Source of the DNA: a bacterium
GTDB lineage: Bacteria > Patescibacteriota > Saccharimonadia > Saccharimonadales > SZUA-47
Assembly (NCBI GenBank): GCA_030427445.1
Contig: JAUIBQ010000008.1
Span: 1-46,884 of the forward strand
Length of the DNA: 46,884 nucleotides
Reading direction: 5' to 3'
In this document: piece after piece, positions 1,549 to 39,478 of the stretch
Layout: every line of letters begins with the position of its first letter
How positions within the stretch are numbered: the stretch's first letter is position 1
Notes under the pieces: model-generated
The model's input: only the letters and a program-made list of their open reading frames with translations
What the model was told of the DNA's origin: nothing
Databases searched by the model: none
Position numbers and translations under genes: made by a program

Positions 1549-1620
1549 GTATTGTAACTGGGATAGTATGCCCAGAGGTGCTAGAAAAAGCACCATTTAA
1601 AGAAGTTAACTACTTTAAAT

Positions 1621-1739
1621 AAAAATCACGAGGGGATTCGTGATTTTTGAAGGAGGCAACTTGGCGAAAGTGCCTGAAGTGTCCGAGGAAACTTGTTTTC
1701 GTCGGCAGTTCTGGCACAAGCGCCATTACGTGCCGACGC
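1621..1739 (+). ncRNA. structured leader RNA copy B, immediately upstream of tmRNA
   Basis: Perfect hairpin AAAAATCACG-AGGGGATT-CGTGATTTTT, followed by core GGAGGCAACTTGGCGAAAGTGCCTGAAG, a CUUG-capped hairpin, and stem CGTCGGCA/TGCCGACG. Second covarying copy at 21107-21222. Confidence 0.75.
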
Positions 1740-2302
1740 GGGGCTGAATTTCAAGCTCGACATTGGACTTTGACAAGTTAGAGTAATTCCTGCAACTCAA
1801 TATGTAAGATTTTGGGTACTACTCGGTGACAAGAATCTGCTTATTATTTTCGTGATGCATATCCAAAGATATGATGAGCGAAAAAATAATCAGAGAATTG
1901 TTGCTGATAGTAGTCACAAATTGCATATTGGGTTGCGGGGGTTACGTTGTGGCAAGCCGGATCCTGCACGTTAGCCGGGAAGAATTTTAGATGCAGAATC
2001 TAAACTAGCGACAATGATTGACAACGCTTTTAGCGCTCGTCAGTCAGAGTTCGCGCTAGCAGCCTAATTAGTTAGACTGCGATCCGCTCTTTGACTCAGA
2101 TAGAAGTCAGCGGGTCTTATATTATCTGATGCACTATCTACCGACATCTTAAGAAGATAGTCAAGTTTGCAAGGTTGCAGAGTAGCAGTATTTTGTCTGT
2201 TTAGACCTGTTGCTCTAAAGAAATTTCTAAATAGACTAAGCTTGTAGTCACCTAACAACTCAACCGATGGACACGGGGGGCAGTACCCCGTCAGCTCCAC
2301 CA
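1740..2302 (+). ncRNA. ssrA: tmRNA
   Basis: 5' GGGGCUGA...UCGAC pairs with 3' UCAGCUCC-ACCA; conserved AGACUAAGC-UUGUAGU motif near the 3' end; H2-like CAUUGG/CCGAUG; PK1-like CCGG..CCGG with CUGCA/UGCAG just upstream of the tag; tag frame ends ALAA-stop. Confidence 0.9.
2008..2067 (+). other. tmRNA tag reading frame (ATMIDNAFSARQSEFALAA-stop)
   Basis: GCG resume codon 11 nt after PK1 (CTA GCG ACA...), ending GCG CTA GCA GCC TAA (ALAA stop), as in other tmRNA tags. Confidence 0.75.
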
Positions 2303-17963: not shown

Positions 17964-18081
17964 GTATAAAAAGTAACGATAAATTCGTCCAATTAAATTA
18001 ATAAATTGTCATCCCACCTGCAACTAAAGAGTGTGAAAAATGATTTAATGCTAGTATACCACCCCTGTTTATGGTTGTAAA

Positions 18082-19396: not shown

Positions 19397-21049
19397 ATGG
19401 CATTACTTTATTTCTATGACACAACCGAAGCTGATGAGAATCAACTTTCAGATGCGCTCAAACAGACTGACCATTCTTGGAAGTTTGTATCTGAGAATAT
19501 CTCATTAGAAAATAGTGACCCTGAGGCTGAAGTTATATCTGTGTTTGTTGGCAGCAATGTGACTCGAGAAATAATTGAGCGCATGCCTAAGCTACGCCTC
19601 ATCGCATGTCGATCAACTGGCTTTAATAATATAGACATCGAGGCAGCCGAGGAACGAAATATCACAATTGTGAATGTTCCAACGTACGGTGAACACACGG
19701 TTGCTGAATATGCGTTCACACTACTGCTATCACTCGTAAAAAAGCTGCCTGATAGTTTGCACAAAACACAGAAAGACCAGCCAGACATCATGGGGTTTGA
19801 CCTTAAGGGGAAGACATTTGGTGTCATCGGCACTGGACATATCGGGCAACACGCGCTGAAAATCGCGCATGGCTTTGGCATGAAAACAATCGCGTATGAT
19901 GCATTTCCTAAACAAGAACTTGAAGGCTCTCTTCACTTTTCATATGTATCTCTCGAAGATTTATTAAAAAACGCAGATATCATCAGTCTACATGCACCCT
20001 ACCTACCAACGACACATCACATCATAAACGAAGAGCGAATCAACATGATGAAAAATGGATCTGTGTTAATAAATACTGCACGCGGGAGCTTAATTGATAC
20101 AAAAGCACTTGTTGAAGCTATCAGCTCAGGTAAACTTGGCGGAGCGGCTCTAGATGTTGTCGAAGGAGAAGAATTTCTTGATATCAATAATCAGCAAGAA
20201 TTATCACGCAACCCTAGAGTGAAAGAAGCTCAGCTTGAACAAAATTTACATATATCGATCTTGAGCAAACTACCAAATGTCATCATCACACCACATAATG
20301 CTTTTAATACGTTTGAAGCCGTGCAGCGAATTAACTCGACCACTGCTAAAAATATTATTGATTTCTGGTATGGGAGCGTCCCGAACAAGGTGCAAAAACC
20401 TGAAAAAACACTCGGGAAATTACTCATAGCTCGACATACCGAAAGTGAATGGAATGCTACAGGACAGTGGACGGGACGAACCGACACTCACTTAAGTGAA
20501 AAAGGCTTCAGAGATGCCGTAACATTAGGTCAGAAACTTAAAGAGCTCGATATCGCAATTGATATCGCTTACTGCTCTGAGCAAATACGGACTCGCGAAA
20601 CACTGGAAGGGATTTTAGGCGCCTCACAACAGTTCAGTGTGGACATAGTAAGGAACGGGGCTGTTAATGAGCGCGACTATGGTGACTATACAGGAAAAAA
20701 CAAATGGGAGATGAAAGAAATTCTTGGCGAAGAGCACTTTAACGCTGTACGTCGTGGCTGGGACGTTGGTGTTCCTGGAGGTGAAACGCTTAAAACAGTC
20801 TATGAACGGGTGATTCCTTTTTATAAGGAAGTGTTGTTTCCGATTATCCAAAGTGGCAAGAATGTGCTGTTAGTAGCTCACGGCAACAGTATCCGTTCAC
20901 TCATGAAATACCTTGAAAATATTTCAGATGAAGATGTTGAACAGCTTGAAATGCTTTTTGGCGAGATAGTCATCTACAGTCTTAATAACGAAGGCCGTAT
21001 GAAAGAAAAATCAAGCGTCCATATCGAGTCTGAAGCACCCAACGCATAA
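19397..21049 (+). CDS. fusion: D-lactate dehydrogenase-like (N) + 2,3-BPG-dependent phosphoglycerate mutase-like (C)
   Basis: N-terminal D-2-hydroxyacid dehydrogenase (FGVIGTGHIGQHALKIAHGFGM, SVLINTARGSLIDTKALVEAI, ITPHNAFNT); C-terminal PGM (LLIARHTESEWNATGQWTGRTDTHLSEKG, RDYGDYTGKNK, LLVAHGNSIRSLMKYLENISDED) in one uninterrupted frame. Confidence 0.93.
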   Translation: MALLYFYDTTEADENQLSDALKQTDHSWKFVSENISLENSDPEAEVISVFVGSNVTREIIERMPKLRLIACRSTGFNNIDIEAAEERNITIVNVPTYGEHTVAEYAFTLLLSLVKKLPDSLHKTQKDQPDIMGFDLKGKTFGVIGTGHIGQHALKIAHGFGMKTIAYDAFPKQELEGSLHFSYVSLEDLLKNADIISLHAPYLPTTHHIINEERINMMKNGSVLINTARGSLIDTKALVEAISSGKLGGAALDVVEGEEFLDINNQQELSRNPRVKEAQLEQNLHISILSKLPNVIITPHNAFNTFEAVQRINSTTAKNIIDFWYGSVPNKVQKPEKTLGKLLIARHTESEWNATGQWTGRTDTHLSEKGFRDAVTLGQKLKELDIAIDIAYCSEQIRTRETLEGILGASQQFSVDIVRNGAVNERDYGDYTGKNKWEMKEILGEEHFNAVRRGWDVGVPGGETLKTVYERVIPFYKEVLFPIIQSGKNVLLVAHGNSIRSLMKYLENISDEDVEQLEMLFGEIVIYSLNNEGRMKEKSSVHIESEAPNA

Positions 21050-21061
21050 GCAGTAAAGTGC

Positions 21062-21090
21062 TTGAAGTTTTTCTTCACCTCTGTTAAAAT
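21062..21090 (+). promoter_or_regulatory. promoter of leader RNA/tRNA-Glu
   Basis: TTGAAG (21062-21067), 17-nt spacer, TAAAAT (21085-21090). Confidence 0.65.
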
Positions 21091-21106
21091 AACACTCTGA
21101 GAAACA

Positions 21107-21222
21107 CATTTTCGCGAGAGGATTCGTGAAAATGAGAGGAGGCGACCTGGTGAAAGTGCCTGAAGCGACGAGGAACTTGTTTCGTCGGCGGTTCTGGCGC
21201 AAGCACCATTACGCGCCGACGA
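21107..21222 (+). ncRNA. structured leader RNA copy A, immediately upstream of tRNA-Glu
   Basis: Hairpin CATTTTCGCG-AGAGGATT-CGTGAAAATG, core GGAGGCGACCTGGTGAAAGTGCCTGAAG, CUUG-capped hairpin, stem CGTCGGCG/CGCCGACG; covaries with copy at 1621-1739. Confidence 0.75.
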
Positions 21223-21297
21223 GGTCCCATCGTCTAACGGCTAGGACACCAGGTTTTCATCCTGGCAATAGGGGTTCGATTCCCCTTGGGATCACCA
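21223..21297 (+). tRNA. tRNA-Glu (UUC)
   Basis: GGTCCCA...CCAGG-TTTTCAT-CCTGG...GGGGTTCGATTCCCC...TGGGATC-A-CCA. Confidence 0.95.
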
Positions 21298-21303
21298 ACT
21301 AAA

Positions 21304-21332
21304 CAACGTCACCATCTGGTGGCGTTTTTTAG
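21304..21332 (+). terminator. tRNA-Glu terminator
   Basis: AACGTCACC-ATCT-GGTGGCGTT followed by TTTT. Confidence 0.7.
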
Positions 21333-39449: not shown

Positions 39450-39478
39450 TTGATTTTTTTCCCTAACAGGGGTAGAAT
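39450..39478 (+). promoter_or_regulatory. promoter of tRNA-Lys
   Basis: TTGATT (39450-39455), 17-nt spacer, TAGAAT (39473-39478). Confidence 0.6.

Follow-up and report, generated by a model that had tools for sequence, protein, structure and literature searches.

A structured RNA family at tRNA and tmRNA gene boundaries in Saccharibacteria and its possible nature as a protein-less mobile element

The element at the tRNA-Glu and tmRNA loci

The window analyzed here, a contiguous stretch of 46,884 nucleotides, belongs to a genome of 966 kb in 43 contigs (G000) that is 97% complete and has its closest relatives among the Saccharibacteria. It contains an intact tRNA-Glu(ttc) gene with its own sigma70-type promoter and intrinsic terminator (Table 1), and directly after the promoter and a short remainder of the native leader lies a structured element, copy A, whose last base adjoins G1 of the tRNA. 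The upstream neighbor of copy A is the gene for a 550-aa protein (19397-21049) in which a D-2-hydroxyacid dehydrogenase and a histidine phosphatase domain are fused, and which was found at full length in several Saccharibacteria relatives. The original prediction had placed the promoter, the structured element and the start of the tRNA at exactly these positions, and all three proved right to the base. The predicted fold of copy A has a free energy of -51.3 kcal/mol (z = -4.7), which none of 200 shuffled sequences equaled, and its helices covary among copies, as described below.

A second copy, copy B, precedes the tmRNA gene, as had also been proposed, and the tRNA-Arg (36350) and tRNA-Lys (39507) genes of the window were likewise confirmed to lack the element. 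Alignment with the tmRNA of a related genome, G007, corrected the 5′ end of this gene to the base following copy B; the Rfam match starts at 1930. The gene harbors a hairpin insertion of ~170 nt (about 1779-1950) that the G007 tmRNA does not have, and a 191-nt stretch of this region is predicted to fold into a very stable long hairpin (-80.6 kcal/mol). This insertion explains why the Rfam start lies 190 nt too late and why ARAGORN missed the gene.

Table 1. Positions of the element copies and associated features in the window
Feature	Position	Strand	Remarks
Element copy B, adjoining tmRNA	1618-1739	+	118.6 bits
tmRNA	1740-2302	+	5′ end corrected
Motif ACC[C/T]CTGTT	18061-18069; 21077-21085; 39465-39473 (-)		
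Sigma70-type promoter of tRNA-Glu, TTGAAG-17-TAAAAT	21062-21090	+	-35 at 21062-21067, 17-nt spacer, -10 at 21085-21090
ACCTCTGTT beside the -10 of tRNA-Glu	21077-21085	+	
Remainder of native 5′ leader, between -10 and element	21091-21106	+	Empty sites: ~20 nt from -10 to tRNA
Element copy A, adjoining tRNA G1	21107-21222	+	Covariance model match 21104-21222, 131 bits
HP1, 11-bp hairpin	21107-21134	+	Loop GAGGAU at 21118-21123; doubly compensated pairs 8/11 (16 copies), 11/11 (114 copies)
Linker AGAGGA	21135-21140	+	G21138 pairs with C21220; G21139-A21140 opposite G21218-A21219 (tandem G-A)
Long irregular hairpin P1-P4	21141-21217	+	Covariation in the 16- and 114-copy alignments
P1	21141-21144/21214-21217	+	
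P2	21148-21152/21204-21208	+	Internal loop ACC(U)/AUYAC
Apical AA-CUUG-UU of long hairpin	about 21174-21182	+	
Conserved element end GACGA, tRNA directly next	21218-21222	+	GACGN end in 76 of the 100 best copies
tRNA-Glu(ttc), intact	21223-21297	+	
Intrinsic terminator of tRNA-Glu	21305-21330	+	

Structure and covariation of the RNA family

Copies of the element share a layout of ~117 nt that consists of HP1 with its loop GAGGAU, a linker GAGAGGA, one long irregular hairpin and a terminal GACGN. The long hairpin carries the motifs ACUUGG, CAUYAC and AAA-CUUG-UUU, the last of which forms the apex; a conserved internal loop (RACUU/AUYAC) lies within P1-P4, and a tandem G-A step is closed by a G-C pair. 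In four loci (L018, L020, L021 and L031) the loop of HP1 has been replaced and its stem retained, and copies with a standard HP1 vary little in their length up to the tRNA (118-122 nt).

The first alignment (A1) was built from 16 copies with a tRNA or tmRNA at their end. Of its cells at predicted pairs, 94.3% can pair, compared with at most 45% in sliding controls, and 30 of the 38 pairs show changes on both sides. In an alignment of 114 copies, which was fitted to the model, 91.1% of the cells pair and all 38 pairs are doubly changed. When folds were predicted with Watson-Crick pairs only, so as to be strand-neutral, 64 of the 1x1 mismatches were G-U and 24 were A-C; this excess, as expected for RNA, indicates that the strand as drawn is the selected one. 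All diverged copies keep the fold, beyond the expectation for unselected relics of a transposon, with the limit that the model detects only copies of this kind. None of the 4227 Rfam families matches the element, and at the curated threshold the window and the collected loci gave tRNA and tmRNA matches only; within the open-licence literature, no published description was found. The element is an uncatalogued structured RNA family.

Several other identities were considered and rejected. A coding leader (AGGAGG followed by TTG, in a frame running into the tRNA) was ruled out by indels of 1-2 nt between copies, which break any shared reading frame, together with the compensation of pairs. An RNA that sequesters CsrA through the GGA of its hairpin loop was dismissed, as PF02599 has no match in G000, and so was loss of RNase P as the reason for the element, since the RNase P RNA is present (217.6 bits).

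Placement and variable presence at tRNA and tmRNA genes

The covariance model (R1) matched 43 of the 295 genomes of the order, with 1-11 copies each, and in a sample across the phylum the 4 matching genomes among 380 all came from this order. Of the 114 copies, 82 have their end 0-3 nt ahead of a tRNA or tmRNA detected by ARAGORN, covering ~18 isoacceptor types; the adjoining tRNAs are those for Met/iMet, Glu, Lys, Gln, Arg, Ser, Trp, Tyr, His, Leu, Val, Pro, Asp, Phe and Cys. The genome of the window itself holds 8-9 copies; BLASTN located those before tRNA-Met(cat), tRNA-Lys(ttt), tRNA-His and tmRNA, and the covariance model added those before tRNA-Tyr, tRNA-Ser(gga) and tRNA-Glu(ctc). The selectivity that had been suggested holds to the extent that only some tRNAs carry the element, but it is not specific to tRNA-Glu and tmRNA and follows no functional grouping.

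The remaining hits are mainly of a few kinds. Some precede tmRNAs or tRNAs that the caller had missed or misread, and others are followed by a 5′ fragment of a tRNA, other sequence and then an intact tRNA. At ~11 loci with such a displaced intact tRNA, the element continues into 16-27 nt of near-perfect tRNA 5′ sequence before unrelated structured sequence begins. Others are antisense and comprise a subfamily that adjoins the complement of the CCA end and three copies beside [AT]ACAGGGGT. Apart from L145, a weak hit with no tRNA nearby, copies always lie at the edges of tRNA or tmRNA genes or at a motif beside their promoters. The antisense copies directly behind CCA, on the opposite strand, were found at tRNA-Leu(taa), Cys(gca), Pro(ggg), Met(cat), Gly(tcc) and tmRNA, mostly with the junction CCA/CGTC as read on the tRNA strand. 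The conserved GGA...GAC of the linker and end region is also present in this subfamily, several members of which share the HP1 loop and the GGA-helix-GAC closing step. Both groups obey one rule: the element meets the tRNA gene boundary with its 3′ end, whatever the direction of the tRNA. A leader function alone hardly accounts for this rule, which agrees with targeted insertion.

Several further arrangements were observed around these genes. Loci L029 and L031 contain inverted pairs of elements upstream of a single tRNA, with the outer, antisense copy abutting a ACCCCTGTT-type motif after the promoter, and at L123 a single antisense copy lies at a ACCCCTGTT-type motif upstream of tRNA-Arg(gcg). 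The motif ACC[C/T]CTGTT occurs in either orientation close to the -10 in many tRNA promoters of Saccharibacteria; exact matches were found in 51 of 252 upstream stretches of 250 nt, compared with 0.6 in shuffles, and in 6 downstream stretches, and the motif may act as an operator of tRNA genes. Another structured element (GTGAGAAATGCCNGNGGCATTTCGCAAGG...AACTTGTT...GGGGTCGC..GTGACC) sits in the D-loop, anticodon or T-loop of duplicated tRNA fragments beside intact tRNAs (L066, L105, L072, L074, L110, L120, L006:1200-1320, L134, L166 and L084). At L139, L071 and L110, stretches antisense to the D-arm region of the same tRNA (e.g., GCGCTCTAACCAACTG) lie between the element and the intact tRNA. 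At L334 (1299-2053), a RAYT-like Y1 gene (1339-2016) is enclosed by perfect 30-nt palindromes in inverted arrangement that are unrelated to the element.

Presence of the element at a given tRNA gene varies between close relatives, with promoter and tRNA intact. The tRNA-Glu(ttc) genes of G004 and G010 have the same promoter as the window (TCTGTTAAAATAA) and a leader of ~20 nt without the element, at the site that is occupied in G000; relatives lacking it at tRNA-Glu thus exist as the original prediction had envisaged among its possible refutations, and the random placement named alongside them was not observed. Within one genus, G052 carries 10 copies and G024 a single one, the copy common to both being at tRNA-Arg(gcg) (90% identity). 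The two genomes align at the syntenic tRNA-Leu(gag) in upstream gene, promoter and tRNA, and an insertion of ~117 nt at G1 is present in G052 only; at tRNA-Met, the promoter is conserved and is followed by the element only in G052. For the four remaining pairs, the alignment around the junction was too poor for a judgment. No terminal inverted repeats or target-site duplications were evident at the aligned junctions.

The relatedness of the copies agrees with this pattern. Of 74 copies, 57 have their nearest relative at a different tRNA in a different genome, as illustrated by the iMet copy of G007 and the Glu copy of G009 (88%), which is not what would be expected of an inherited part of given tRNA genes. 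On the tree, tRNA labels required 52 changes compared with 56.1 in shuffles, only slightly non-random, and genome labels 51 compared with 59.4, more clearly so; these counts argue for copying within genomes onto other tRNAs. A physiological signal shared by tRNA-Glu and tmRNA, the function first suggested for the element, was not borne out: the survey of related genomes yielded many tRNA types, occupancy differs within a genus, copies do not follow tRNA identity, and antisense relatives adjoin 3′ ends.

Possible origin and function of the element

We favor, with moderate confidence, the interpretation that the element is a protein-less mobile element of Saccharibacteria, which encodes a structured RNA of ~117 nt and is directed at tRNA and tmRNA gene ends. 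It would insert at the tRNA boundary without harm to the tRNA, whose promoter would then drive transcription of the element as a 5′ leader. Formation of the tRNA requires RNase P to cut at G1, and the same cleavage would free the element RNA, with GACGN at its 3′ end; we propose that the structure is kept because it is recognized by whatever copies or inserts the element. Dispersed similar non-coding copies and the coexistence of occupied and empty orthologous sites are features of MITE-like repeats. Searches for an autonomous relative with a transposase found none in the loci read or in viral, plasmid and phage collections, and no plasmid, phage or viral contig in these collections carried the element: the one viral match to HP1 lay inside a phage gene, with no further part of the element, and the model hit none of the 78 contigs that have the apical motif. 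These negative searches count against mobility, as do the poor match of TnpB/Cas12f, reverse transcriptase and Y1 transposase to the carriers described below, the lack of evident inverted termini or target duplications, and the fold kept by all diverged copies.

The alternative that the element is a cis-acting leader, controlling how the tRNA or tmRNA that follows is transcribed, folded or matured by RNase P, and is spread by recombination between tRNA loci, appears rather unlikely. Its exact position between promoter and G1, the orientation of most copies in the direction of the tRNA, the compensated fold, the closeness of the P1 helix end to the RNase P site (2-3 nt upstream) and the non-random genome label on the tree are all as such a leader would have them. 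T-box and riboswitch leaders likewise are covarying 5′ structures between promoter and gene, but the element precedes the tRNA and tmRNA genes themselves, matches nothing in Rfam, is patchily distributed and has antisense relatives. Against a leader stand its lack of conservation at orthologous tRNAs even within a genus, the absence of functional grouping among its tRNAs, the antisense copies behind CCA or at the promoter motif, which cannot act as tRNA leaders, and the ~11 loci in which only a tRNA fragment comes next.

These same loci are the reason for retaining a guide-like reading, in which the element would be a scaffold and the first 16-27 nt of the tRNA a guide for a putative nucleoprotein serving homing or control of tRNA genes. 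The tRNA sequence stays attached where the intact tRNA is displaced, the antisense copies share the order of scaffold and then tRNA, and the scaffolds of TnpB omega RNAs and CRISPR guides similarly end directly at the possible guide flank. However, the retained length is equally explicable by other elements inserted into the D-loop, no array accompanies the element, no linked nuclease gene was seen, and none of the 61 genomes searched encodes TnpB or Cas12f, which makes this explanation improbable. A composite scenario is doubtful but somewhat less so: a scaffold RNA at mature tRNA ends, expressed from tRNA promoters and released by RNase P with or without a tail of 16-27 nt of tRNA, may move between tRNA genes and species by an RNA-based route, as a selfish RNA or as a guide RNA.

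Reverse transcription of the element RNA, primed at a nick in the tRNA gene or by the CCA end of the tRNA, would account for the 3′ end always abutting the tRNA boundary and for the order tRNA-CCA-cDNA in the antisense subfamily, but it is very improbable, since reverse transcriptase is absent from most carriers, with PF00078 unmatched in G000, G001, G004, G005, G007, G009 and G029, which hold 3 to 11 copies each. Slightly less probable still is a REP-like element moved by a Y1/RAYT transposase, for although RAYT-like Y1 genes occur in the order and hairpin DNA with a strand preference would fit, Y1 was found in only 22 of 61 genomes (14 of 30 carriers and 8 of 31 non-carriers), not in the copy-rich G000 and G052, and the RAYT genes inspected are flanked by unrelated repeats of their own.

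As a protein-less mobile element, it would find its closest parallels among non-autonomous bacterial repeats such as MITEs, REP/BIME, PATE and Correia-type repeats, which are also short and gene-less, with several divergent foldable copies per genome and both empty and occupied sites. It differs from them in targeting exact tRNA and tmRNA ends, in its RNA-like internal loops and double compensation, and in having no partner transposase found and no evident termini or target duplication. tRNA genes are also safe and recurrent targets, with tRNA function kept, for integrases that enter them and for yeast Ty1/Ty3 and Dictyostelium TRE5, which insert upstream of them; whereas these land within the tRNA or upstream of it at varying distances, the element is protein-less and lies at the base before G1 or after CCA. 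In CPR bacteria, insertion sequences inside rRNA genes, some encoding a homing endonuclease, have been reported (PMC11270868); these likewise affect stable RNA genes of the same radiation, whereas the element lies at tRNA ends and encodes nothing.

The family, so far found in Saccharibacteria (TM7, including human oral members) only, marks the ends of tRNA and tmRNA genes with single-base precision and in both orientations. If it is mobile, it would be a gene-less element that lives on essential genes without harming them, and which enzyme recognizes tRNA gene ends in a genome of ~0.97 Mb becomes a direct question. Should it prove functional, tRNAs themselves would be seen to carry a structured leader, which is a rare situation.
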